From assembly GCA_016210545.1 (NCBI GenBank), contig JACQTY010000197.1, forward strand, positions 1 through 41,515: a stretch of 41,515 nt of DNA, in the 5' to 3' direction. The position numbers and the translations under genes were made by a program. Source of the stretch: Chloroflexota bacterium. GTDB lineage: Bacteria > Chloroflexota > Dehalococcoidia > JACVQG01. The stretch's first letter is position 1. The number at the start of each line of letters is the position of its first letter. The notes under the pieces were generated by a model. It did not search any database, was not told the origin of the DNA, and saw only the letters and a list, made by a program, of their open reading frames with translations. Below are positions 1,258 to 41,112 of this stretch, in pieces.

Positions 1258-3429
1258 CTACACCTCCAACTGCACGTCCCAGATGAACGGGGAGTCCTTC
1301 AGATTGACCTCTGTCTCCAACATCGTCCAGCAGCCGGGGCAGTAGAACTCCCGGAGCACAAAGCGGTCATTGCGCATGCCCGGCGCCAGTCCGATGCTCC
1401 CCCGGTCAGCGGTGAACTCGCCCACCGGCAGGTAATTCTTGTAGTTCAGGTCCGCCGGGGCTACGATTCGCTGGCATTTGTGGCAGCGGACGTAGGCCCG
1501 TCCTTCCTTCCTCACAATGTCCAGGTAGTAGCTCATGGGCTTGAGGAATTCCGCCTCGCCCTGAGGCAACTCGGGGGCAGTCCCCGGGGCCGAGTGCTTC
1601 TGGCGTTCGGCCCGGATGGCTTGCCGGCGTTTCTGCGTGGACTTTGGCCCCACCTTCAGCCGGCGGCTCATCATCACGCCGTAGACGTGTTCCGCCGCCC
1701 TCAACGATACCAGCCCGTTCCTGACATCCTCGGCCACCAGCTCCGGCGCCCGTTCCAGGGGGTCGCCGTAGCCGCCTCCCCCGGGCTGGGTGGTCTGCAT
1801 TACGTCCTCGGTGCCCAGGTAGCTCCTGGTTTTGGGTGGCACGGGCTCGGTCTGGCCCTCCAACTCCTCCATATCCTGGGGCAGCCTGCCCTGGCCCAGC
1901 AGTCGCGCCGCATTGGTCTTCCGTTTCAGGTGATACTGCCCGGTGCCGCCGGGATAAGCCCCACTGACCCCGGCCGAAGGCGGCTGCTCCATGCCGTGGG
2001 TGAAGGCGACGATGCTCATCGGCGCCGACGTGCCGTATGGCGCCAGGGCGCTGGCCCCGGCCACGCCGCCACGGAACATGCCCGCACCGCCGCTGTCAGC
2101 CAGCTCGTGGCGATAGAGGTACAGCAGGGGATAAAGGAACTCATACGTTTCCACATTGCCGACGCTCAGGGTGAGGGAGGACAGGATGCCTCCGGTGTTG
2201 ATGCCGTCCCTGTCGCTTCTGGCCCCGGCCCCGCCCAGCAGGTCCATGGCCATGCCGCCGACCCGCCCGCCCTGGCGGCCCTGGGCATCGAAGGTCCATA
2301 TGGCGAAGGCGCCGCTCCAGGTGGACATGACATGGTCCCGGTATTTGGGACTGGCAGCCATCATCCGGGCCAGGCAGACGTTCACATCGACTCTGGCCGC
2401 CCACAGCGCGGCGGCAGTGGCCGAGCTTACCCCCGCCGGCCAGGTAGCATCCACAATCGTGCCGGGCTTCGTGCGGAACTCCAGCGAACGGAGGACCGCC
2501 GCCGGGCACCAGGGTATGTCGTAGCACAGCATGGGCAAGGCAAAGGATAGCACCGCCCCTTTCAGCCCGCCGACGCAGGCGTTGATGAGGCCCGGCGCCT
2601 GGGCGGACGCCTCGGTATAGTCCAGGACTAGCTTGTCGTCCCGCTTCGTCAGTGTGAGGGGACAGGCATAGACCTTGTCCTGCAGGCCGTCGTGTTCAAT
2701 GTAAGCAGTATGGCGGTAGATGCCGTCGGGCAGGTCCTTGAGCCGGGAGCGGAACCGGGCATCGACGTAGTCGATGATGCCGTCGATGGTGGCTTCCACG
2801 GCATCGGGGCCGTAGGCCTCTACCAGCTTGCGGAAACGTTCCCTGGTCACGTTGATGGCTGCCAGTTGCGAGCGCAGGTCCAGGGAGAAGATCTCGGGGA
2901 AGCGGGAGCGGCGCACCACCAGCTTCTCCAGGTCTTTCCGCAGGACGCCCCCCTCGACGAGCTTGAAGGGCGGCATGACCGGGGCCTCGTCATGGACTGA
3001 AGCGGCCCCCACCGCCCATCCCCCCGACACCGGTCCGCCGACGTCGATAAAGTGCAGGGTGCAACCGCACCAGCCCATCAGCTTGCCCTGCCAGTGGATG
3101 GGAGCGACCACGGTGATGTCCGGCTGGTGCAGGGCGCCGTAATAGGGGTCATTGCACAGGAAAACGTCGCCTTCATTGATGCCCGGGTTCTCCTGGTATT
3201 CCTCGAGGACGTGCTTGATGACCTCGCCCTGCACGCAGGCATGGCTGCTGATGTAGATGCCCATGATGACCATGTCGCCGCTGGCCGAGAGGATGCCGGT
3301 ATTGAAGTCGTAGGCCTCGTTGGCCACCGGGGAACCGGAGATGAGTTTGATGGTGGTGCCGGCCTCGTCGTTGATGGCCCACAGCCGGTGGCGGATAACC
3401 TCAAAGGTGACGGGGTCAAGCTTGTCCAT
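1258..3429 (-). CDS. hyuB: hydantoinase B/oxoprolinase-family subunit fused to an acetone-carboxylase gamma-like zinc domain
   Basis: The 723-residue product starts MDKLDPVTFEVIRHRL, typical of HyuB/AcxB subunits, which work with HyuA in ATP-dependent hydrolysis of cyclic amides or ATP-dependent carboxylation of ketones. After the HyuB domain (to about residue 570) the chain runs on to a C-terminal domain with C649-x2-C652 and C697-x2-C700. The order VRC-x2-C ... REFYCPGC-x-T resembles the separate gamma subunit (AcxC) of acetone carboxylase. The fusion therefore favours a carboxylase over a simple hydantoinase; this is inference. An AGGAG site precedes the ATG. Genes upstream on this strand are a DNA methyltransferase and a restriction enzyme, which separate hyuB from hyuA. 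The substrate is unknown; acetone, an aromatic ketone such as acetophenone, or a hydantoin are all possible. Confidence 0.88.
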   Translation of the reverse strand: MDKLDPVTFEVIRHRLWAINDEAGTTIKLISGSPVANEAYDFNTGILSASGDMVIMGIYISSHACVQGEVIKHVLEEYQENPGINEGDVFLCNDPYYGALHQPDITVVAPIHWQGKLMGWCGCTLHFIDVGGPVSGGWAVGAASVHDEAPVMPPFKLVEGGVLRKDLEKLVVRRSRFPEIFSLDLRSQLAAINVTRERFRKLVEAYGPDAVEATIDGIIDYVDARFRSRLKDLPDGIYRHTAYIEHDGLQDKVYACPLTLTKRDDKLVLDYTEASAQAPGLINACVGGLKGAVLSFALPMLCYDIPWCPAAVLRSLEFRTKPGTIVDATWPAGVSSATAAALWAARVDVNVCLARMMAASPKYRDHVMSTWSGAFAIWTFDAQGRQGGRVGGMAMDLLGGAGARSDRDGINTGGILSSLTLSVGNVETYEFLYPLLYLYRHELADSGGAGMFRGGVAGASALAPYGTSAPMSIVAFTHGMEQPPSAGVSGAYPGGTGQYHLKRKTNAARLLGQGRLPQDMEELEGQTEPVPPKTRSYLGTEDVMQTTQPGGGGYGDPLERAPELVAEDVRNGLVSLRAAEHVYGVMMSRRLKVGPKSTQKRRQAIRAERQKHSAPGTAPELPQGEAEFLKPMSYYLDIVRKEGRAYVRCHKCQRIVAPADLNYKNYLPVGEFTADRGSIGLAPGMRNDRFVLREFYCPGCWTMLETEVNLKDSPFIWDVQLEV

Positions 3430-3509: not shown

Positions 3510-4718
3510 TCAACGCTTCGATCTTACGCCGATTAGCGCATCCTTCACGGCTCGCGTGATTACCTTGGAAGCTGAGTCAACGACTATCATCCCAGGTATT
3601 GATACCGTACTTGCGAGTTCCATCTCCTGTTGTGTTGACACCAGAATCATCAATGAAGGATGTTTTGTTTTGGAAGCGGTGTAGAGCGCCAGGGCAGCTT
3701 GTCCGAGGGGTTCGTTCGGCTTTTGGACTCTGATCGGGACCGTGCCATTTGCGGCATCACATTTGATGAACGCGTCTATTCCGCTGTTCCTCTGAACTGG
3801 GATTATGTCTAGTCCGCTCAAATGAGCAAGAGCGTATTTATCCGTATTCTCGTACGCCCCCCTACCCTCTTCCATGAGACAAGACCTGGAGCTCGAGGGT
3901 GACCGGAGCCGTTCTTGAGTAATACGTATGGCGTCCGGCGAATTGTCTATGCCGATACATCTTCGGTTGAGCAGCCGTGCTGCAATGAGAGTAGTTCCCG
4001 ACCCACAGAATGGATCCAGCACGAGGTCGTTCTCATCGGTCACAAGTCGGATAATCTTTTCTAGTAGTAAGATGGGCTTTTGCGTTGGATAGCCTACCCG
4101 CTCCTTTGCCTTCGGATTCAGATATGGTATGTCCCAGACGTCGCCAAGTGGCACGCCTTTCTTATTTCCATTGAAAACGGCCTCCCCGTTTTCGTCTATC
4201 GCATAGATCGATTTGTTATATTCGTCTCTAGCCCGCTTCTGGAGTATTTGATCGACATTGGTCGCCGGTGAGTACGGCACGAACATCGTATTGAACTTGT
4301 ATTCTTGTGACTTCGTGTAGAACAGAATGTTTTGGTGCGCCCGCAACAGGCGTCTCTCGCCGCTTGACCATCTCCTGTACTGCCAGATTATCTCTGAACT
4401 GAACATTTCTTCCCCGAAGACGTTATCCAACAGGAACCTGGCAATGTGCGACGCATTTCGGTCGCAATGGAGGAAGATCGAGCCTGTGGAATTGAGTACA
4501 CGTTTCATCTCGCAGAGTCTGGGATGTAGGAACTGGGCATATTCGTTTGTGCTTCTCCAAACGTCAGAGAATTGAAACCGCTGGGTTCGGTCCCTGGTGG
4601 TCAGCTTTTGGGTGTTTCCCGTAAAAAATGGTGGATCCAGGTACACGAGGTCTACGCTATTCTCGGGAACCTTTGTTAGTATTTCCAGACAATCGCCTAG
4701 ATACACGTCAGCTTCCAT
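3510..4718 (-). CDS. type II DNA methyltransferase, beta-class (N6-adenine or N4-cytosine)
   Basis: The 402-residue protein has the amino-methyltransferase catalytic motif DPPF at 28-31 and the AdoMet-binding motif DPFCGSGTT at 235-243. That order (catalytic before AdoMet motif) defines the beta class. A GYPTQKP segment at about 209-215 is also typical. The last 110 residues form an extra domain that I do not recognise. Its ATG overlaps the end of the upstream restriction-enzyme gene by 11 bases, so the two are translated as a unit. DPPF/DPPY usually means adenine methylation but does not prove it. Base composition is visibly richer in AT than the flanking hyu genes, which suggests recent acquisition. 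Confidence 0.88.
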   Translation of the reverse strand: MEADVYLGDCLEILTKVPENSVDLVYLDPPFFTGNTQKLTTRDRTQRFQFSDVWRSTNEYAQFLHPRLCEMKRVLNSTGSIFLHCDRNASHIARFLLDNVFGEEMFSSEIIWQYRRWSSGERRLLRAHQNILFYTKSQEYKFNTMFVPYSPATNVDQILQKRARDEYNKSIYAIDENGEAVFNGNKKGVPLGDVWDIPYLNPKAKERVGYPTQKPILLLEKIIRLVTDENDLVLDPFCGSGTTLIAARLLNRRCIGIDNSPDAIRITQERLRSPSSSRSCLMEEGRGAYENTDKYALAHLSGLDIIPVQRNSGIDAFIKCDAANGTVPIRVQKPNEPLGQAALALYTASKTKHPSLMILVSTQQEMELASTVSIPGMIVVDSASKVITRAVKDALIGVRSKR

Positions 4719-5343
4719 TCTTGTTCCCCTCCCGTTCCTTGGCGAGCGCCTGCAAGATACCCTTGAGATTCACGGTGGTTTTGGCTTCAACGTACTTCCA
4801 CGCATTGTCACCCTGATAATACTGACCACCAAGGCTTTCATAAATGGCTTGTATCGCTTCCTGGATTCTCATGGCCTGTACCCTATTCGGATAGTAAAAC
4901 ATGACACGTATTGGTATGTAACCAGCCCTGCTAATGGCCTTGATTCTGGTGTGCTCCTTCGTAATATGGTCTCCGTCAGTCGTCGCGTCGCGCCACTTGA
5001 TCTCTATTGCGTCATTCTCGATCACGCAATCTATCTCAAACGTTTTCGGTCTGCTTCCTTCCGTGTTGGCAATGCGCAGCCCCGCCGCGGCTGGAAACTT
5101 GTACTTGAAGCAGAGTTTCGCAGCCTCCTCTGAGAACGCTCCTGCATAATTGTACAGAAACCGTCCCTTATTCTGGTAAACGTCTATCAGTTTGCCCTCT
5201 TTATTAGAAACGCCTAAGACTGTGTAAATAAGATAGTATGACGTATCATCGTGTTCCATTTCTTCCACGCGATGAGCAATCTGTTTTTTCAATTCCTCAG
5301 CGTAGCGCGTAGCAAGTATTCGTATTTCGTCAGCTATTGTCAT
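4708..5343 (-). CDS. ApaLI-like type II restriction endonuclease
   Basis: The 211-residue product resembles the ApaLI restriction endonuclease family, whose founding member cuts GTGCAC. The visible signature is a stretch around residues 100-130 containing KTFEIDC, then AIEIKWRDATTDGDHITKEH. D105 and E114-x-K116 make a plausible PD-(D/E)xK catalytic site. The start at 5343 is preferred over the longer frame to 5442 because a GGGAG site lies 6 bases upstream and the longer frame would overlap hyuA. The adjacent methyltransferase gene overlaps its 3' end. GTGCAC occurs at least nine times in this window, four of them inside hyuA, so protective methylation would be needed if the enzyme has ApaLI specificity. 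The family assignment is from memory of its motifs, not a search. Confidence 0.82.
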   Translation of the reverse strand: MTIADEIRILATRYAEELKKQIAHRVEEMEHDDTSYYLIYTVLGVSNKEGKLIDVYQNKGRFLYNYAGAFSEEAAKLCFKYKFPAAAGLRIANTEGSRPKTFEIDCVIENDAIEIKWRDATTDGDHITKEHTRIKAISRAGYIPIRVMFYYPNRVQAMRIQEAIQAIYESLGGQYYQGDNAWKYVEAKTTVNLKGILQALAKEREGNKNGS

Positions 5344-5410
5344 GCCGACTCCCACGCCCTTTGAAAGATGGCTCCACAAAAAAGAATATGCAACCTTCGC
5401 CCCACGGGCC

Positions 5411-7513
5411 CTACTTTTGTGTCCCCATCTCGATAATAACATTCTTGTACTCGTCTACCCTGGCGTGCTGCCCGGGGTGGATAACGGCGATGGTCGTGGG
5501 GGCCTCTATGATGGCCTGGCCCGCTATTGCATTACCGGGCTGGAGCCTGTCCATCTCGAATACATCGGTGTCCACAAAACCGCCATGCTTCTCGAAGTAC
5601 GCCCGCCGCCGGCTCTTGAGCGCCGGGGCCGGGTCGCTGCCGCCCCGGGGGTATTTCCGCAGGGATGGGAATCTGGTACCGCCGACGCCCATCACGATGT
5701 AGTTCACCATCTCGATGCCGCCCTGTCGAAAGCCCGACCCCTTACCGTACAGCTCTTCATACCGCTGTTCGAATCTGGCAACGATGTCGTCCATGGAGGC
5801 TGCGCTCAGCGGCTTCTCAGAAAGCGACACCCTGACCACGTGCACCTGCCGCCGGTAGCGCATCTCCACGAAACGCAACAACGAGATGTCTCTGCCCTTT
5901 AGCCCCGCCCTGGTCAGCTCCTCGCCGGCCCTTCGCTCCAGGCCCGTGTAGATCTGCTTGAGCCTTTCCACATCGGTAGGCACCGGCAGGGGCAAAGACT
6001 GGGAGTAGAAGGCCGAGACCCTGGACGCGGCCACGCCGAAGGCGGAGAAGGCTGCTGCCAGCGGAGGTATGATGATCCCCTTGACGCCGATATCGGCCCC
6101 GTACACGCCGGCGTACTGGGGACCGGCGCCGCCATAAACCAGCATGACGAAATCCCGCGGGTCGTAGCCCCGCTCGATGCTCACCTTGCGCACCAGGTCG
6201 GCAAGCTGCGATGTAGCTATCTTGAATATGCCGGCTGCCGCCTGGTGCACATCCTTTCCCAGCGGTCCGGCTATCTTGTCTTCCACCGCGTCGAAGGCCC
6301 GTTTCGGGTTGAGGCGCATTTTGCCGCCGAGGAAGTAGTCGGGGTTAATGTAGCCCAGGATGAGGCTGGCATCGGTGAGGGCCGGCAACTCCCCGCCGCG
6401 GTCGTAGCAGGCGGGACCAGGTTCAGACCCGGCGCTCTGCGGGCCTACCCGCAGCACCCCGGTCACCGGCTCGATCCAGGCGATGCTGCCCCCGCCCGTC
6501 CCGATCGAGGCCACGTCCACAGTGGGTATCTGGGTATGGTACTTATCGATAACCGCCTCTCGCGAGTACTCGAACTCGCCCTGGGCCACCAGGCCGACAT
6601 CGAAGCTGGTGCCGCCGACGTCGGTGCACAAGATATTGCTGTGGCCGAGCAATTGCCCCAGGAAACGGGCGCCGCTGACGCCGCCCACGGGACCGGAGCC
6701 CAGAGTATAGATGACCTTTTCCTTCAACTCATCTATGGGCAGCACGCCGCCGCTGCACTGCATCATGAGCAGCGAGCTTTTCAGGCCGAGCCGGCGCAGC
6801 CTTTCGTCCAGCGCCTGGAAGTAGCGGTAGCTCACCGGTCCCAGGTAGGCGTTGAGGACGGTGGTGGCCATGCGCTCGTACTCGCCCATGCGGGGCGACA
6901 GGTCGCTGGAGGCGGTAACGAATAGATTGGGATAGGACTGGCGCGCCATCGCCTTGATCTCTTGCTCGTGTTGCGGGTCCATGAAAGACCACAGCAGACA
7001 GATGGCGATGGCCTCAACGCCGTCCTTAACCAGGGCATCTATGGCCGCAGCCGCATCGGCTTTGTCCAGGGGCACCAGCACCTTGCCCTGGTAGTCCACC
7101 CGTTCGGTCACCCCACGCACCCGCTGCCGGCTGACCAGCGGCGCAGCCTTGTCCAGCTTCACCACGTAGGTGATGTCGCTCTCCTTGAGGCCGGCCACCT
7201 TCTGGTGCACGCGGCCGATGAACATCGTATCCTCGAAACCCCGGGTGGTTATCAGGCCGGTCTTCACGCCGGTGTGCATCAGGAGCATGTTGGTGGCGAC
7301 CGTCGTGCCGTGGCCGAACACATCCGTGTTCTGCAGGAGCTGCTCCGCGGTCAGGCCGAGGGTGGCCGCAGCATCTCCGAGGCTATCGATGACCCCCTGG
7401 GAGAAGTCCCTGGGGGTGGATAGGGCCTTGCCTATGGTGAGGTGGCCGGCGTCATCCACCACCACGCAGTCGGTGAACGTGCCGCCCGTATCTATGCCGA
7501 TGGTGTATCCCAT
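5411..7513 (-). CDS. hyuA: hydantoinase A/oxoprolinase-family ATP-dependent subunit
   Basis: The 700-residue protein begins MGYTIGIDTGGTFTDCVVVD, the phosphate-1 loop of the ASKHA-type ATPase fold found in HyuA, 5-oxoprolinase and the acetone-carboxylase beta subunit. Later landmarks are HGTTVATN, a TDVGGTSFDVG phosphate-2 loop near residue 300, and GGGSIAW. HyuA activates the substrate or bicarbonate with ATP and works with HyuB, here found 2 kb downstream on the same strand. In relatives the two genes are usually adjacent; here a restriction-modification pair lies between them. No strong ribosome site is seen before the ATG. The thiolase operon is divergent, 226 bp away, so a shared control region is likely. 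Confidence 0.9.
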   Translation of the reverse strand: MGYTIGIDTGGTFTDCVVVDDAGHLTIGKALSTPRDFSQGVIDSLGDAAATLGLTAEQLLQNTDVFGHGTTVATNMLLMHTGVKTGLITTRGFEDTMFIGRVHQKVAGLKESDITYVVKLDKAAPLVSRQRVRGVTERVDYQGKVLVPLDKADAAAAIDALVKDGVEAIAICLLWSFMDPQHEQEIKAMARQSYPNLFVTASSDLSPRMGEYERMATTVLNAYLGPVSYRYFQALDERLRRLGLKSSLLMMQCSGGVLPIDELKEKVIYTLGSGPVGGVSGARFLGQLLGHSNILCTDVGGTSFDVGLVAQGEFEYSREAVIDKYHTQIPTVDVASIGTGGGSIAWIEPVTGVLRVGPQSAGSEPGPACYDRGGELPALTDASLILGYINPDYFLGGKMRLNPKRAFDAVEDKIAGPLGKDVHQAAAGIFKIATSQLADLVRKVSIERGYDPRDFVMLVYGGAGPQYAGVYGADIGVKGIIIPPLAAAFSAFGVAASRVSAFYSQSLPLPVPTDVERLKQIYTGLERRAGEELTRAGLKGRDISLLRFVEMRYRRQVHVVRVSLSEKPLSAASMDDIVARFEQRYEELYGKGSGFRQGGIEMVNYIVMGVGGTRFPSLRKYPRGGSDPAPALKSRRRAYFEKHGGFVDTDVFEMDRLQPGNAIAGQAIIEAPTTIAVIHPGQHARVDEYKNVIIEMGTQK

Positions 7514-33868: not shown

Positions 33869-34366
33869 ATGATGCTTATAACTAAACTCCAGATTGGCCA
33901 GGAAGCGCCTGATTTCAGGGCGGAGAGCACCAAAGGGCCTATTTCGCTGGGTCAATACCGGGGAAACTGGGTGGTCCTGTTCTCCTACGCCAAGGATGAC
34001 ACCTCGGTATGCACGGCCCAGTGTCTGTCCTTTGCCGACCACCAGGAAGCATTCAAGACGCTGGGCGTGCAACTCCTGGGCCTGAGCGTTGACTCCGTGG
34101 AGTCCCATGAAAAGTGGGTGGCCAAACTGGAACAGGAAAAGGGGGCGATGCTTGACTTCCCTCTGATAGCTGACCAGGACAAGCGGGTGTCCCGGCTTTA
34201 CGGAGTCCTGGATGAAGACAAAGGCGTGGCGCTGAGGGGGGTCTTTGTTATTGACCCTGCGGGGAAGCTACGCTTCATGGCCTGCTATCCGCTGCGTGTA
34301 GCGCCTAACGTGGATGAGGCGTTCCGGGTTGTCAGGGAACTTAAGGAACTGAAGGATGTGTGGTAG
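33869..34366 (+). CDS. peroxiredoxin (AhpC/TSA family)
   Basis: The 165-residue thioredoxin-fold peroxidase has its peroxidatic Cys at 48 in DDTSVCTAQC, with a second Cys at 52. Thr45 of the usual P-x3-T-x2-C active site is present, but the Pro is replaced by Ala41. The conserved Arg is likely R123 (ALRGVFVID). It would reduce hydrogen or organic peroxides. An AAAGGAG site precedes the ATG pair; either Met could be used. It is monocistronic, with a consensus promoter in front and a terminator behind, as expected for a highly expressed stress protein. Confidence 0.9.
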   Translation: MMLITKLQIGQEAPDFRAESTKGPISLGQYRGNWVVLFSYAKDDTSVCTAQCLSFADHQEAFKTLGVQLLGLSVDSVESHEKWVAKLEQEKGAMLDFPLIADQDKRVSRLYGVLDEDKGVALRGVFVIDPAGKLRFMACYPLRVAPNVDEAFRVVRELKELKDVW

Positions 34367-35004: not shown

Positions 35005-35080
35005 TGGTGCCCCCAATGGAATTCGAATCCATGTTACCGGCTTGAAGGGCCAGCGTCCTAGGCCGCTAGACGATGGGGGC
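35005..35080 (-). tRNA. tRNA-Glu (anticodon TTC), CCA encoded
   Basis: The gene folds as a full cloverleaf: acceptor GCCCCCA/TGGGGGC, D-arm with GG in the loop, anticodon arm CTGGC-CCTTCAA-GCCGG, T-arm ATGGA-TTCGAAT-TCCAT, discriminator A, then CCA. Anticodon TTC reads glutamate GAA/GAG. The base before the anticodon (position 33) is C where U is nearly universal. The D-arm start TCGTCTAG is typical of tRNA-Glu. Confidence 0.93.
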
Positions 35081-35243: not shown

Positions 35244-35327
35244 GTGGAGAACGTGCACAGGCGATAGTCTGCCTGGTATCTCGGCTGCGAGGAATGGGTC
35301 CCGATGTATCGGGACCCCTTCTTTCTT
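35244..35327 (+). pseudogene. remnant: second copy of the decaheme cytochrome 3' end and terminator
   Basis: About 84 bases match 37661-37743, the last codons, stop and terminator of the cytochrome gene, with roughly 11 differences. The copy would read VENVHRR-stop where the intact gene reads VEKVHKR-stop, and it keeps the shared TAGTCTGCCTGGTATCTCG. It ends in a GGGTCCCGA/TCGGGACCC hairpin with CTTCTTTCTT. Upstream of 35244 the resemblance fades quickly, apart from a possible EACA in frame. It is most simply the tail of a lost tandem paralogue, but a copied terminator module is possible. Confidence 0.6.
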
Positions 35328-35348: not shown

Positions 35349-35377
35349 TTGACTTACGCCAAAAAATGGCTTAGTAT
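35349..35377 (+). promoter_or_regulatory. promoter of the decaheme cytochrome gene
   Basis: TTGACT (35349-35354), 17 bases, TAGTAT (35372-35377). The predicted start of transcription is near 35384, about 40 bases before the TTG start codon. Confidence 0.55.
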
Positions 35378-35385
35378 ACTGGCTT

Positions 35386-35401
35386 AGTGACCAAAGTCAC
35401 A
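35386..35401. promoter_or_regulatory. CRP/FNR-type operator at the cytochrome promoter
   Basis: AGTGA-N6-TCACA matches 9 of 10 bases of the CRP half-sites TGTGA-N6-TCACA. The symmetric core is GTGAC-CAAA-GTCAC (35387-35400). It sits just downstream of the predicted transcript start, where binding would normally repress. Confidence 0.5.
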
Positions 35402-35425
35402 AGTCTGGCCTGAAGGAGGTCGCCC

Positions 35426-37684
35426 TTGTCCAATGTTAAGACCAGGAGTGGACTGATCGCACTCATCATGTTAGCGGTTGTCTTGTCGCTGGCCATCTTG
35501 TTGGCGGGCTGCGCCGGTAAAGCCGGTGAGCGCGGCCCGGCCGGACCTGCTGGCTCTGCTGGCCCTGCCGGCCCCGCTGGCAAGGCTGGACCCGCCGGTC
35601 CTGCGGGTGAGCGTGGCCCAGCCGGCCCTGCTGGCCCCGCCGGTCCCGCAGGCGCTGTTGGCGCCACCGCTGCGGCGGCTCCCGGGTCCGGCCTCAAGGC
35701 CACTATTTCCAAGGTCGATATTGCCGCGGATGGCAAAGTCACAGTCTCGTATAAGCTGAGTGACGACAAGGGCAACCCGGTTAATCGGGCCACCGATCTG
35801 GATGCCAATAGTGAGCGGTTTTCTATCGCCCGAATTGAGTCAGATAGCGCCAGCGGGCTGACCCGGTGGCTGAGTTACGTACTGGCTGATGTCAAAGGGG
35901 CCAAGTTCACTTTCAAGGGCAAAGAGATGGAGCCTGCGCTGGCCGAGGTGAAGGGTGTGCCGGTGAGCGCCGCTGACGCCACGGGAGAGTATACGACTGT
36001 GCGGCCCGGCGAGTATACATACACGCTTAAGACAGTTCTGCCGGCAAATTATGACAAGAATGCCACTCACCGCGTCATCTATTTTGCTACCAGGAACGCG
36101 CGGGCATTTGTGGCCAATGGCGTCTTTGACTTTGTCCCCGCTGGTGGGGATATTAAAGTGACCCGGCAAGTAGTGGCTACTGAGAACTGCAACCAGTGCC
36201 ACGACCCTCTGGCTGTCCATGGCGGCGTGCGGAGGGATACTAGAGTCTGTGTGGTCTGCCATACCCCACAGAATATAGACGCCGAATCGGGGAATACCCC
36301 TGAATTCAAGGTCATGATACACAAGATTCACCGGGGCAAGAACCTGCCCAGCGTGGCTGTCGGCAAGAAAGACTACTTTATTGTTGGCTTTAACCAGAAC
36401 CCGCTGGACTTCAGTGAGATCGCCTGGCCGCAGGACATCCGCAACTGCACCACCTGCCACAAAAACGCCCCCAATGCGGATAACTGGAAGACAGCCCCCA
36501 GCCGGGCGGCCTGCGGCGCCTGCCACGAAAATATTGATTTTGCTACCGGTAAGGGCCTCTACGGTGGGGCTGACCATCCCGGTGGACCGCAGGCCGACGA
36601 CAACAACTGCAAACTGTGCCACCAGCCCGATGGCGCGGAGTTCACTGCGGCTATCTCAGGCGCTCATACACACCCCAACCGTTCAACCCAGCTAAAGGGC
36701 GCCAAGATAACCATCATGACGGCAAATGCCAAGCCGGGTGAAAAGCCTTCGGTAGACTTCCATGTGATGGATAATTCAGGCGCCTTCCTGGACCCGAATA
36801 AGATGGACTTCCTGGAGGCTACCATCGCCCATCCCACCACGGATTATGCGCACCGTGCTACTGAGCAAGTGAACCAGATACCGGCTGCTGGCGCCCCTGC
36901 TTTCGTGCGTCCGGGCGCCCTGGCGAAGTTGGAGCAGCCCGGCGAACATTACCGATATACATTTAAGGATGCGTTACCCCAAGACTGGAAGGATACGGCC
37001 GCAGTAGGCATGGGCGGCTACATGAACATTACTATCAAGGGGCCACGCGGCAAGGATACTCTGGTGAGACAAGCCGATATTAATCCCGTAACCTACGTCG
37101 CTGTCGGCGGCGGCGTAGCAACGCCGCGTCGGGCAGTAGTGAAGCGGGACAACTGCAATCAGTGCCACCTGGACCTGGGCAATCCCGCAGCGATTTCGAT
37201 TCATGGCGGCATCCGGCGCAACACCGAGTACTGCATCATGTGCCACAACCCCAATCACTCGGACGAAGCTTTCAGAAAAGAAGGCGAGACCCCGGAGAGC
37301 GTCCACTACAAGTACATGGTACACAGCCTTCATATGGGCGAAGAAAGGGCGGTTGCCACCGAATTCCGTGGCCGGGGGGTGGCCAAGACATCGGAGATAT
37401 TCTTCCCCACGCCGGGCGGCCAGAGGAACTGCGCCAAGTGCCACGAGGGCCAGAGTTTCACTATACCTTTGCCGCCTGGAGTACTGGACACGAAGGTGAT
37501 GTTCAAGGACAAGGTGTTATCGACCACACCGCCGATCCAGATGGCGTGCAAGGCCTGCCATATCGGTCGACCGGGCTTCGACGCCCATGTGGAAACCATG
37601 ACCTCCCCCAAGAGCGGCGAGGCATGCGCCAACTGCCACGGCCGGGGCAAAGAACTCGCTGTGGAGAAAGTGCACAAGCGATAG
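35426..37684 (+). CDS. OmcA/MtrC-like decaheme c-type cytochrome lipoprotein with collagen-like stalk
   Basis: The 752-residue protein has a signal peptide ending in a lipobox LLAGC with lipidated C29, then 17 Gly-X-Y triplets (31-81) rich in GPA, then a beta-rich domain (about 88-250) and ten CxxCH heme sites. The heme Cys pairs start at 255, 275, 341, 363, 395, 577, 603, 669, 708 and 734, a 5+5 arrangement with a beta domain between (about 425-570), as in OmcA/MtrC. Such proteins carry electrons across the cell surface to metals, minerals or partner cells. The collagen-like stalk would hold the heme domain away from the membrane. The start is TTG after AAGGAGGT, 6 bases upstream. A strong terminator follows. 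No porin or other cytochrome gene is in the window. Confidence 0.93.
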   Translation: MSNVKTRSGLIALIMLAVVLSLAILLAGCAGKAGERGPAGPAGSAGPAGPAGKAGPAGPAGERGPAGPAGPAGPAGAVGATAAAAPGSGLKATISKVDIAADGKVTVSYKLSDDKGNPVNRATDLDANSERFSIARIESDSASGLTRWLSYVLADVKGAKFTFKGKEMEPALAEVKGVPVSAADATGEYTTVRPGEYTYTLKTVLPANYDKNATHRVIYFATRNARAFVANGVFDFVPAGGDIKVTRQVVATENCNQCHDPLAVHGGVRRDTRVCVVCHTPQNIDAESGNTPEFKVMIHKIHRGKNLPSVAVGKKDYFIVGFNQNPLDFSEIAWPQDIRNCTTCHKNAPNADNWKTAPSRAACGACHENIDFATGKGLYGGADHPGGPQADDNNCKLCHQPDGAEFTAAISGAHTHPNRSTQLKGAKITIMTANAKPGEKPSVDFHVMDNSGAFLDPNKMDFLEATIAHPTTDYAHRATEQVNQIPAAGAPAFVRPGALAKLEQPGEHYRYTFKDALPQDWKDTAAVGMGGYMNITIKGPRGKDTLVRQADINPVTYVAVGGGVATPRRAVVKRDNCNQCHLDLGNPAAISIHGGIRRNTEYCIMCHNPNHSDEAFRKEGETPESVHYKYMVHSLHMGEERAVATEFRGRGVAKTSEIFFPTPGGQRNCAKCHEGQSFTIPLPPGVLDTKVMFKDKVLSTTPPIQMACKACHIGRPGFDAHVETMTSPKSGEACANCHGRGKELAVEKVHKR

Positions 37685-37709
37685 TCTGCCTGGTATCTCG
37701 ACCGTGAGG

Positions 37710-37743
37710 AACGGGCCCCAATGTATCGGGGCCCGTTCTTTTT
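37710..37743 (+). terminator. strong intrinsic terminator after the cytochrome gene
   Basis: A perfect 10-bp stem AACGGGCCCC/GGGGCCCGTT (37710-37719 with 37728-37737) has an 8-base loop and is followed by CTTTTTG. Confidence 0.85.
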
Positions 37744-37895
37744 GAATTATCGTCCTGTAATCCGTGGATTCTTGCTGCTTTGCAGGGGCCATGCGGTCCC
37801 TTGCCCTTGACAGAGAGGACCCCGTTGCCCGTTTCCAGGGTTGGGAGTCTCGGTGTATCGGGACTCCCGTACCGGGAAGGGGTTGGGGTCTCGGG

Positions 37896-37924
37896 TTGTT
37901 GGCGGGGGCCTGGTAGTCTACAAT
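37896..37924 (+). promoter_or_regulatory. promoter of the ABC exporter, probable leaderless start
   Basis: TTGTTG (37896-37901), 17 bases, TACAAT (37919-37924). The hexamer ends 6 bases before the GTG at 37931, so the start codon should be at or next to the transcript 5' end. No ribosome site is visible. Confidence 0.45.
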
Positions 37925-37930
37925 GAAACT

Positions 37931-38686
37931 GTGAAGAAGCGAGACGGTGTTCCGGCGCACCTCGCCCCGCCAAGCAGCGTGCCGCCTCCCCTTGTCATAT
38001 TGCAACAGGTATCCAGGGTGTATCACCTGGGGCCGGTCCGGGTGTCTGCCCTGGACAGCGTCGACCTGGAGTTACAGCCGGGCGAGTTTGTGGTGGTGCT
38101 CGGACCGAGCGGGTCGGGCAAGACTACTCTCTTGAATGTCATTGGAGGTCTGGACTCGCCCACGGCGGGCAGGGTTGTTGTCGACGGCATGGACATTACG
38201 CGCAGCAACGAGGCCCGTCTGACCCAGTTCCGCCGCCGCAAGATAGGCTTTGTATTCCAGTTCTTCAACCTGCTGCCCAACCTCACCGCCAGGGAGAACG
38301 TGGAGCTGGCCGCTGCCCTTGCTGGCACTCAGCGTCTGATAGACAGGGTGATGGACGACGTGGGACTGACGCGCCAGTCCCGTCAGTTCCCCGGGCAGCT
38401 TTCCGGGGGTGAGCAGCAGCGCGTGGCCGTTGCCAGAGCGCTGGTCACCGATGCCCCGCTGGTCCTCTGCGACGAACCCACTGGCAACCTGGACTTCGCC
38501 ACCGGCCGCCGTATCTTGAAGCTCATGACGGATATCTCCCGGCAGACCGGCAAGACCTTTGTGGTGGTCACTCATAATGCAGCTATCGGGCGGGTAGCCC
38601 ACCGGGTGCTCCACCTCCGGGATGGCCGTATCGTGCAGGAAAAGGACAATTTCGAGCCCATAGACCCTGAACGTCTGGAGTGGTGA
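37931..38686 (+). CDS. ABC transporter ATP-binding protein, LolD/MacB type
   Basis: The 251-residue ATPase has Walker A GPSGSGKT at 58-65, the Q-loop FVFQFFNLLP, signature LSGGEQQR from 157, Walker B LVLCDEPTGNLD and the H-loop VVVTHN. The GFVFQFFNLLPNLTA and DEPTGNLD phrases are typical of the MacB/LolD/FtsE group, which power mechanotransmission permeases rather than substrate pores. The first 20 residues before VILQQVSRVY are Pro-rich and divergent. The GTG at 37931 is preferred over the open frame back to 37841 because of the promoter at 37896-37924. Its TGA overlaps the ATG of the permease by one base. Confidence 0.92.
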   Translation: MKKRDGVPAHLAPPSSVPPPLVILQQVSRVYHLGPVRVSALDSVDLELQPGEFVVVLGPSGSGKTTLLNVIGGLDSPTAGRVVVDGMDITRSNEARLTQFRRRKIGFVFQFFNLLPNLTARENVELAAALAGTQRLIDRVMDDVGLTRQSRQFPGQLSGGEQQRVAVARALVTDAPLVLCDEPTGNLDFATGRRILKLMTDISRQTGKTFVVVTHNAAIGRVAHRVLHLRDGRIVQEKDNFEPIDPERLEW

Positions 38687-41112
38687 TGGTGGGTCTGCTG
38701 CCCCGGAAAGTCTTAAGGGATATCCTGGCCTCCAGGTGGCAGTTTGCCGCCGTGGTTGCCCTGGTGATGTTGAGCGTCGCCATGTTCATCGGGGCCTACG
38801 GCGGCTACCTCAGCCTCAGGAATTCGTTTGACCACAGCTACGTCGAGTTGGGGATGGCCGACTACTGGCTGCAAGTGGACGGAGTGCCCCAGAGGGCGGT
38901 GGCCAAACTGAACGCCATCCTCGGCGTCACCGCCGAAGGGCGGATAGTACGCGACGTCCTGGCCTCGGTGCATGAGGGAAGCCCCGAGGAAGTCACCGTG
39001 CATGTCGTCTCTCTGCCCGGCAACGGCCAGCCCGTCCTCAACCAGATAGTGCTGGAGGAGGGCGGCTACTTCTCCGGCCCTTATGCCCGAGAGGTGCTGC
39101 TCCACAAAAAGTTCGCCAGCTATCACGGCTTTCGTTCCGGCGACCGGATAACCCTGGATATGGACAAGTCGAAGGCGCAGTTCCGGGTAGCGGGCATAGT
39201 CAACAGTCCGGAGTACCTGTTTACCGGGCCGGCCCGCAATTATGGCGTGGTTTTCATGTCGAAGGACAGCGCCGAGAAGTTGCTGGACATGAAGGGCTAC
39301 GTCAACGAGTTGGCGTTGCAGATCGATGACGAGGCCGAAAAGGGGGCGACGTTTGAACGGATAGGCATTGCCCTCCGGGAGTACAATATCGGCCGGCTGG
39401 AATTCAAGGGGAGTCCGACGCCTCTGGCCGACCGGAAGACCGACGTCAGCCGCGGCTACCTTACGGCCCGGGTGATAGGTCTGAAAGACCAGGCCAGCGA
39501 CCGGATCCTGCGCATGGATCTGGAAGCTTTCAGCGGCATCGCCATTGTTTTTCCCGTCATGTTCATGTCCATGGCGGCCCTGACCATTTACGTCTTGATC
39601 GGCAGGCTGGTACAGTCGCAGCGGCCACAGATAGGCGTAATGAAGGCCGTTGGCTATTCGCGACGGCAGGTGCTGGCGCACTACCTGACGTACTCCCTGG
39701 TCATAGGCGTCGCCGGCGCTTTAGCCGGGGCGATGGCGGGACTGTATCTGGCCGGGGTCTTCGCCCAGCAGTACGCCGAGGCGCTTAACATCCCCTTCGT
39801 GCAGGTGCAGGTACACTGGCATGTCGTCCTTATCGGCGTGTTGGTCACGGTAGCCGTTTGCACAGTGGGCGGCCTACTGCCGGCCCTGGCCACGGCGAAT
39901 CTACGTCCGGCCCAATCTTTGAGGCCGCCTTTGCCCGGCCAGGGCGCCAGACGACTGTTGGAGCGGCTGCTGCCGACGCCGGGCTGGCTGCCCATGCCGG
40001 CCAAGCTGGCGCTGAGGAACCTGGTGAGGAACCCCTACCGGAGCCTGTTCCTGGTGATGGGTACCGCCTTTGCCGTGAGCCTGGTGCTATCCTCTGCCGT
40101 GTTCCTGGACTCGATAGGCCTGCTCAAGGACATACAGTTCAACCGCATCGAGGCCTACGACGCCAAGGTGTACTTCAAGGGCATCGGCAGCACCGGGCGC
40201 TACTTCGAGTCCGAGTTCTGGACGGGGGTCAATGAATCGGAGCCTCTTCTGGAGACGCCGTACCGCTTCAGACACGAGGGCCACTCCGAGGATAGCACCC
40301 TTATCGGGCTGCCGCCGGACCAGGACCTGACCCAGTTGTTCAACGCGCGGAACCAGGCTTTGCAAGTGGAAAAGGGCCGGCTCTTGCTCACGCCGTTCTT
40401 ACGCAAACAGCTAAAGGTGGAAGTAGGCGATCCAGTGGACCTGGAGCCTATCAACGGGGTCGTCGGCGTAAAGCGGGTTGTGGTCGGCGGGTTTGTGGAG
40501 CAGCCCTTTGACAATGGCGGCTATTTGCCTCTGGAAGAGGTGCAGCAACTGCTCAAAGCGCCCGGGGCGGCCACCGGGTTCATGGTAGGACTCGACGAAG
40601 CTGAAGGCTCCCCGGAGGTAGTCAGGAGGCTGTACGAGCTGCCGGAGACACGGACAGTTGAATTCAAGGCGGAGTCCCGGAGGTTCACTGACGAGGTGCT
40701 GAAGTTCTATTACTATTTCACCGGTTTCATGCTGGTGTTCGGCTTAGCCCTGGGCATCATGATCGTGTTCAGCGGCATCACGGTGAGTGTGGACGAGCGG
40801 CTGCTGGAGATGGGTACCCTGCGCACCATAGGGGCAGGCATGAAGCAGGTAGCCGGGATGATAACCATAGAGAGCCTTGTCCTGAGCGGCCTGGGCATCG
40901 CCGCGGGGGTGCCGCTGGGGAACCGTCTGGCCGATTACTTCGCCAATATGTACCAGGCCGAGGACTTTAACCTCCCGATCACCATATTCCCTCAGACCTA
41001 TGTGTTGACCGTGCTCGGGTTGCTGTTGGTGCTGGTGCTCTCCGAGCTTCCCAGCTTGCGGCGCATCAGCCGGCTCAAGCTGGCCAGCGTCATCCGCCAG
41101 TGGATGGCGTAG
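38686..41112 (+). CDS. FtsX/MacB-like ABC permease
   Basis: The 808-residue membrane protein has two FtsX-type halves. The first has a helix at about 18-40, a large extracytoplasmic domain, and three helices between about 280 and 410; the second repeats the plan with a helix at about 450-475, an extracytoplasmic domain, and three final helices from about 675. The phrases IGVMKAVGYSRRQVL and LEMGTLRTIGAGMKQV are the coupling-helix motifs of FtsX families. A GGAG site lies 5 bases before the ATG, which overlaps the ATPase stop. With the ATPase it would form an exporter or lipoprotein-release machine of unknown cargo. Confidence 0.92.
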   Translation: MVGLLPRKVLRDILASRWQFAAVVALVMLSVAMFIGAYGGYLSLRNSFDHSYVELGMADYWLQVDGVPQRAVAKLNAILGVTAEGRIVRDVLASVHEGSPEEVTVHVVSLPGNGQPVLNQIVLEEGGYFSGPYAREVLLHKKFASYHGFRSGDRITLDMDKSKAQFRVAGIVNSPEYLFTGPARNYGVVFMSKDSAEKLLDMKGYVNELALQIDDEAEKGATFERIGIALREYNIGRLEFKGSPTPLADRKTDVSRGYLTARVIGLKDQASDRILRMDLEAFSGIAIVFPVMFMSMAALTIYVLIGRLVQSQRPQIGVMKAVGYSRRQVLAHYLTYSLVIGVAGALAGAMAGLYLAGVFAQQYAEALNIPFVQVQVHWHVVLIGVLVTVAVCTVGGLLPALATANLRPAQSLRPPLPGQGARRLLERLLPTPGWLPMPAKLALRNLVRNPYRSLFLVMGTAFAVSLVLSSAVFLDSIGLLKDIQFNRIEAYDAKVYFKGIGSTGRYFESEFWTGVNESEPLLETPYRFRHEGHSEDSTLIGLPPDQDLTQLFNARNQALQVEKGRLLLTPFLRKQLKVEVGDPVDLEPINGVVGVKRVVVGGFVEQPFDNGGYLPLEEVQQLLKAPGAATGFMVGLDEAEGSPEVVRRLYELPETRTVEFKAESRRFTDEVLKFYYYFTGFMLVFGLALGIMIVFSGITVSVDERLLEMGTLRTIGAGMKQVAGMITIESLVLSGLGIAAGVPLGNRLADYFANMYQAEDFNLPITIFPQTYVLTVLGLLLVLVLSELPSLRRISRLKLASVIRQWMA

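Follow-up and report, generated by a model that had tools for sequence, protein, structure and literature searches.

The stretch of DNA analysed in this work (referred to as the window; 41,515 nucleotides) is contig C156 of a Dehalococcoidia MAG (phylum Chloroflexota), which comprises 3.34 Mb in 263 contigs and is 94% complete. The gene of main interest within it encodes a decaheme cytochrome, and the positions of this gene, its parts and its neighbours are listed in Table 1. The ORF starts with a TTG codon, 6 nt 5' of which lies the sequence AAGGAGG. The gene is apparently monocistronic, with its own terminator and its own promoter-like site, the latter located directly 3' of the terminator of an upstream gene remnant. 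The predicted protein begins with a signal peptide that carries a lipobox, the latter as the preliminary description of this DNA had stated, and Cys29, which is the sole non-haem cysteine in the protein, is the predicted lipidation site, giving the lipoprotein anchor of the TIGR03507 family.

Table 1. Features of the decaheme locus (window positions) and other stalk-bearing proteins of the same genome (contigs)
Feature	Position	Strand	Basis or remark
Peroxiredoxin	33869..34366	+	order shared with sister genome
tRNA-Glu(TTC)	35005..35080	-	syntenic marker common to L017
Probable remnant of upstream decaheme copy: last codons (VENVHRR stop) and terminator	35244..35324	+	
Promoter-like site TTGACT-17-TAGTAT	35349..35377	+	9/12, consensus match only
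Ribosome-binding site AAGGAGG	35413..35419	+	read from sequence
Decaheme cytochrome gene (decaheme A)	35426..37684	+	752 aa, OmcA/MtrC family (TIGR03507)
Signal peptide and lipobox LLAG/C	35426..35512	+	Cys29 at 35510-35512
Collagen-like stalk, 17 Gly-X-Y triplets, residues 31-81	35516..35668	+	PF01391, 32.9 bits
Domain I, beta barrel, ~residues 91-240	35696..36145	+	structure model and fold match
Pentaheme domain II, CXXCH at 255, 275, 341, 363, 395	36188..36667	+	motifs
Domain II conserved partner His 265, 299, 302, 384, 414	within 36188..36667	+	alignment
Domain III, beta barrel, ~residues 426-560, without CX8C disulfide	36701..37105	+	model
Pentaheme domain IV, CXXCH at 577, 603, 669, 708, 734	37130..37681	+	motifs, PF22113
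Domain IV conserved partner His 593, 633, 636, 721, 750	within 37130..37681	+	alignment
Terminator hairpin GAACGGGCCCCAAT..ATCGGGGCCCGTTC, then T run	37709..37738	+	sequence
Stalked monoheme cytochrome	contig C50		20 triplets
Stalked diheme cytochrome	contig C146		18 triplets
Stalked multicopper/cupredoxin protein, copper-nitrite-reductase-like	contig C212		16 triplets
Stalked repeat protein without family match	contig C263		21 triplets
Stalked second decaheme (decaheme B)	contig C194		18 triplets, one Gly-to-Ala break
Operon locus L138	G000:C194:1-6000		decaheme B at 3' end

The placement of this protein in the OmcA/MtrC family, which had earlier been proposed from the 5+5 arrangement of its haem motifs, is borne out by profile searches, motifs and structure prediction. 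The OmcA/MtrC decaheme model TIGR03507 matches it with a score of 438 bits (cut-off 209.3) over positions 3-672 of the 672 in the model, and PF22113, describing domains II/IV of MtrC/MtrF, matches residues 569-751 with 181 bits, which is over its cut-off. The ten CXXCH motifs of the protein form two sets of five (residues 255-399 and 577-738), and exactly ten further histidines, which is as many as bis-His ligation of the ten haems requires, are invariant among seven relatives. In an alignment of 37 sequences, eight of these ten partner histidines are present in all rows, with His593 found in 36 and His750 in 30 of the 37, and the seven rows lacking His750 have a gap at that position. This conservation suggests that all of the haems are probably bis-His ligated. 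The structural model of the core that was used (AlphaFold; pLDDT 91.5, pTM 0.87) is based on the 37-sequence alignment, the model obtained from the 7-sequence alignment being poor (pLDDT 49). It predicts the four-domain fold of barrel, pentaheme domain, barrel and pentaheme domain, and in a search of the PDB with this model, the top 16 matches (probability 1.00; E values 2e-12 to 1e-30; TM-scores of 0.57-0.75 for full-length entries) were all to OmcA, MtrC, MtrF or UndA, the next-ranked match beyond these having an E value of 3e-4. Judged by its sequence and by this predicted structure, the window protein is a genuine OmcA/MtrC-family decaheme. It shares with OmcA, MtrC, MtrF and UndA of Shewanella the four-domain 5+5 core, the bis-His haems and the lipobox, although its identity to these proteins in the structural alignment is about 18-20%. 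The CX8C redox switch of MtrC domain III, a cysteine pair that tunes flavin reduction (PMC9973256), is absent, as Cys29 and the 20 haem cysteines are the only cysteines in the window protein.

The collagen-like stalk is separated from Cys29 by one residue. As was described earlier, it consists of exactly 17 triplets without interruption (GKA GER GPA GPA GSA GPA GPA GKA GPA GPA GER GPA GPA GPA GPA GAV GAT), in which Pro occupies the X position in 10 triplets and the Y position in none. Its score for the Collagen profile PF01391 exceeds the cut-off of 27.2, and a run of this length was seen in none of 100,000 shuffles of the stalk segment, where the maximum was 10. The DNA encoding it has a GC content of 79% and repeats in tandem with units of 9/27 bp, and an antisense collagen-like ORF (35371-35808) is an artefact of this repeat, since its GGC-CCN-GCN unit is strand-symmetric. 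In the orthologue from a sister genome, all 17 glycines are kept while the X and Y positions have diverged, as expected if the Gly periodicity is under selection. The rise per residue in collagen is about 0.29 nm, and at this rise the stalk (51 residues) would span up to about 15 nm. However, as the stalk carries no cofactor, it cannot itself conduct electrons. The term "conductive spike" from the preliminary description is thus only partly supported, in that the conductive element of it does not hold, and "tether" or "spacer" fits the stalk better.

Stalks of this kind are present on other proteins of the host genome, as five further proteins in it carry a lipobox and 16-21 triplets (Table 1). 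Matches to the Collagen profile (E up to 1e-6) are found in 90 of 294 Dehalococcoidia genomes, many of them directly after a lipobox, and a stalked diheme cytochrome like that on contig C146 recurs at another locus (L090). Because the same stalk occurs on mono- and diheme cytochromes, a copper protein and a second decaheme, it looks like a generic lipoprotein tether, and the simplest reading of these sequences is that lipoproteins of this lineage, with redox proteins among them, are in general tethered in this way. A similar-looking small domain follows the repeat in several of the Dehalococcoidia collagen loci (e.g. L078, L082, L083, L096 and L100 among L073-L101).

Within the decaheme family, the Dehalococcoidia members either have no stalk or have Gly-X-Y runs of 5, 6, 9, 14, 15, 17-19 or 24 triplets, counts which may include a Gly beside the Cys and are then one above careful counts. 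Stalkless close homologues, which the preliminary description had taken as evidence against its reading should they share the same function, do exist: they are 44-51% identical to the window core (L048, 51%; L052, 45%) and keep the decaheme core, and the N-terminus of L048 and L052 has a hydrophobic anchor segment and no lipobox. In Myxococcota, 27 of the 30 best-scoring OmcA/MtrC-family loci (L102, L105-L133) have the same core with at least 4 and up to 42 triplets near the N-terminus, in some cases after a short extra N-terminal module. However, Myxococcota are a phylum with an outer membrane, and their triplets, which are often Asp/Asn-rich and include GTNGTN and GPQGEQ repeats, differ at X and Y from the GPA type of the window protein. 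Shewanella OmcA (GGSDGKDGEDGKPGVVG) and MtrF (SACGGSDGDDGSPGEPGK) also have 5-6 triplets near the N-terminus in their PDB sequences, in comparison to the 17 seen here. The proposed search for homologues with Gly-X-Y stalks has therefore yielded many of them, and the idea that the joining of stalk and decaheme is special, or a unique fusion, is ruled out by the surveys of Dehalococcoidia and Myxococcota. In a tree of 37 cores, the classes with no, short and long stalks need at least 9 changes. In view of these repeated switches and the wide occurrence of the repeats, the stalk is, on the evidence of the sequences, a recurrent, evolvable appendage of the OmcA/MtrC family. A description of a Gly-X-Y tether on such cytochromes was not found in the literature searched (open-licence papers). 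The tether is common and length-variable in the family and is shared with other redox lipoproteins of the host. It may represent a simple, testable way by which cells set the reach of their surface cytochromes, and it could be of use in bioelectronics as a modular part.

The preliminary description had also stated that porin-cytochrome partners are not found nearby and had raised the possibility of a single-membrane cell, and both of these points gain support from the results for the genome. No porin-cytochrome partner was seen among the window genes scanned and no MtrA-like gene is present in the window. MtrB/PioB (PF11854) was found in none of the 27 decaheme-bearing genomes, including that of the host, a search in which no control exceeded the cut-off either. 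Omp85/BamA (PF01103), which was found in 7 of 14 control genomes, is absent from the host genome. Profile searches of the host genome with PF03264, PF13435 and PF09699 gave no matches, and the last of these profiles missed the window decaheme as well, so that its lack of matches does not count as evidence of absence. Chloroflexota have been described as monoderm (PMC12488501) and Dehalococcoidia likewise (PMC10284905); some tomograms of Chloroflexota are diderm-like (PMC13319060). The host thus appears to have a single membrane, with which the lack of detected Omp85 and MtrB and the description of the phylum are consistent. A cell that lacks an outer membrane would not need an MtrA/MtrB conduit.

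In its place, the preliminary description had suggested that electrons reach the decaheme by another route, and two gene clusters in the host genome offer one. In a genome-wide search with TIGR03507, the window gene was the sole match, but it is incorrect to conclude that this is the only decaheme in the genome, as a second one, cut by the end of contig C194, was found through a Collagen match at its N-terminus. The operon on C194 consists, in this order, of genes for a Tat-signal 4Fe-4S protein (DsrO-like, 180 bits, which is below the cut-off of the model), an NrfD-family membrane protein (DsrP-like), an Ig-like protein, a diheme, a monoheme and a triheme cytochrome, the last with weak similarity to MtrC/F, and the stalked decaheme B. 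The second cluster, on contig C9, resembles alternative complex III and was assigned by gene order and reading rather than by family search; it contains genes for a pentaheme cytochrome, a molybdopterin/Fe-S-type protein, an NrfD-type protein and a monoheme cytochrome, followed by a type-II NADH-dehydrogenase-like gene. Together these clusters suggest a route from quinol to decaheme without a porin. However, the NrfD operon is linked to decaheme B and not to the window decaheme A, and we infer that the latter is connected to the same route. As the MAG is fragmented and the survey of CXXCH motifs in the host covered the first 100 of 256 sites (contigs up to C116), the haem inventory is incomplete. 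A multiheme fragment that seems to be broken by frame shifts, with CXXCH motifs in different frames, was observed at L065 (G000:C56:6000-13868, - strand, contig positions 12395-13131), which is possibly a membrane quinol cytochrome or a pseudogene.

Based on these results, the explanation that we prefer, and regard as moderately probable, is that the window protein is a decaheme lipoprotein of the OmcA/MtrC family located at the outer surface of a single membrane, where its stalk serves as a spacer and where it receives electrons of the quinol pool via small cytochromes. The lipid at Cys29 would anchor the protein to the membrane, the 17-triplet spacer would allow the ten-haem core to be placed within the cell wall or the S-layer space or to extend across it, and the bis-His haem chain would take up electrons at one point and pass them to an acceptor or redox partner elsewhere. 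The electrons would flow from the quinone pool through the NrfD/Fe-S module or the alternative-complex-III-like complex to small c-type cytochromes, some of them stalked, and from these to the decaheme, the direction presumably being outward, in extracellular respiration. In Tepidiforma, a related Dehalococcoidia genus, the periplasm seen in tomograms, between the membrane and an S-layer, measures about 40 nm and contains a peptidoglycan-like layer of ~20 nm (PMC10284905). As a tether of 15 nm together with the core would extend through much of such a 40-nm wall space, but not clearly past the S-layer, we prefer the idea of a relay or reductase that works on its tether in the wall or at it to that of a conductive spike protruding from the cell.

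Two interpretations of the stalk itself can be considered, and the strict Gly periodicity leans towards a helix while the variation in stalk length and the short forms lean towards a spacer. If the stalk is a flexible, single-chain polyproline-like tether, the decaheme would move as a ball on a chain between donors at the membrane and acceptors on the wall side, with the repeat number setting its reach. This possibility, which is a sub-version of our preferred explanation differing from it only in the state of the stalk, has in our estimation a little under an even chance of being correct; it accounts for the strong variation in length through 9/27-bp repeats, the same tether on unrelated redox domains in the host genome, the stalkless homologues that keep the core and the Gly-to-Ala break in decaheme B, although Gly at every third residue is stricter than a flexible linker requires. 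Alternatively, three Gly-X-Y segments may zip into a triple helix to form a homotrimeric spike with thirty haems at the tip of a rod. The uninterrupted triplets scoring over the Collagen cut-off, the periodicity kept in the orthologue while X and Y change, and the richness in Pro at X, which is expected for triple helices that lack hydroxyproline, are all in keeping with this. However, stalk length in the family ranges from 0 to 42 and has changed repeatedly in the tree, the 4-6 triplets of some relatives would not suffice for a stable triple helix, no separate trimerisation domain is seen and a stalk without cofactor would not conduct, and we consider the spike unlikely. It is highly improbable that the stalks constitute a docking code, by which decahemes A and B and the monoheme, diheme, copper and C263 proteins form hetero-triple-helices and assemble into one membrane-anchored relay.

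Other alternatives to our preferred explanation concern the direction and purpose of the electron transfer. The protein could work in the inward direction, with Fe(II), a mineral or another cell as the source of the electrons, and chains of the OmcA/MtrC type are reversible; in addition, the nitrite-reductase-like multicopper protein and the complex-III-like genes are compatible with the use of another oxidant. However, membrane modules of the NrfD/DsrP type are able to run both ways and nothing in the window favours uptake, and we consider this proposal unlikely. It is less probable again that the decaheme is an electron buffer or sink in the wall space (for peroxide or metal detoxification) rather than a part of extracellular respiration. 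The order peroxiredoxin - tRNA-Glu - decaheme, which is kept in two genomes of the genus, could be viewed in this way, but this order is lost outside the genus, the peroxiredoxin has no export signal as read, and the precedent in this family is for surface electron transfer.

In bacteria with an outer membrane, OmcA/MtrC decahemes are the textbook example of terminal reductases. The occurrence of one in a Chloroflexota genome where Omp85 and MtrB were not detected suggests that this core can also work in the absence of a porin-cytochrome conduit. The window protein clearly belongs to a known family, the cell type in which it occurs is unusual, and its stalk is a long version of one that proved to be more frequent than anticipated. 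Surface cytochromes for extracellular electron transfer in single-membrane cells have been described earlier, viz. OcwA of Thermincola potens and OmhA of Carboxydothermus, both from Gram-positive bacteria (PMC6703420, PMC7829351). However, OcwA, a surface reductase of known structure, is a nonaheme whose relatives are NrfA and c554/octaheme proteins, and it is stated to be unrelated to MtrC/OmcA (PMC6703420), whereas the window protein has ten haems, and neither OcwA nor another structure with the NrfA/HAO-like fold and its three-helix bundle is present among the PDB matches of its model. Gly-X-Y regions in extracytoplasmic proteins are likewise known from Scl1/2, BclA and Lcl (PF01391), but in the Scl prototypes trimers are nucleated by a separate domain and the protein is anchored to the cell wall (PMC8968730), whereas in this case a short stalk links a lipid anchor to a redox core.

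The region upstream of the gene gives an indication of how the locus has evolved. A direct repeat of 81 bp (35244-35324 and 37661-37741; 88% identical) corresponds to the tail of the decaheme gene and its terminator, and a search for further remnants of an upstream decaheme yielded 81-87 nt only. The upstream copy of the repeat is probably what is left of a second decaheme gene in tandem, and a duplication followed by a deletion has probably occurred here. In the sister genome of the same genus (L017), the gene order is peroxiredoxin - PAS protein - tRNA-Glu - decaheme B - decaheme A, both decahemes being stalked, whereas in the window it is peroxiredoxin - tRNA-Glu - decaheme A. The upstream remnant and the presence of decaheme pairs in L017, L047 and L055 suggest that these genes are easily duplicated and lost. 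The two stalked decahemes in L055 (G008:C298; runs of 15 and 14) are located on either side of a P-type ATPase gene. Elsewhere, a decaheme is found near CcmE and CcmF in L056 (G010:C138) and near CcmF in L054 (G024:C3). Directly 3' of the window decaheme (37841-41112, + strand) are genes for a LolD/MacB-like ATPase and an 810-aa duplicated FtsX-type permease, which resemble a lipoprotein-export ABC pair, although the genome is apparently that of a single-membrane cell; this pair was rejected as a partner of the decaheme, since no such pair is present beside the other decahemes of the class. At the other end of the window, genes for an ApaLI-like restriction endonuclease and an N6/N4 DNA methylase (3510-5442, - strand) lie between those for hydantoinase/oxoprolinase A (5411-7513) and B (1258-3429), and this endonuclease/methylase pair apparently splits a hydantoinase/oxoprolinase operon.
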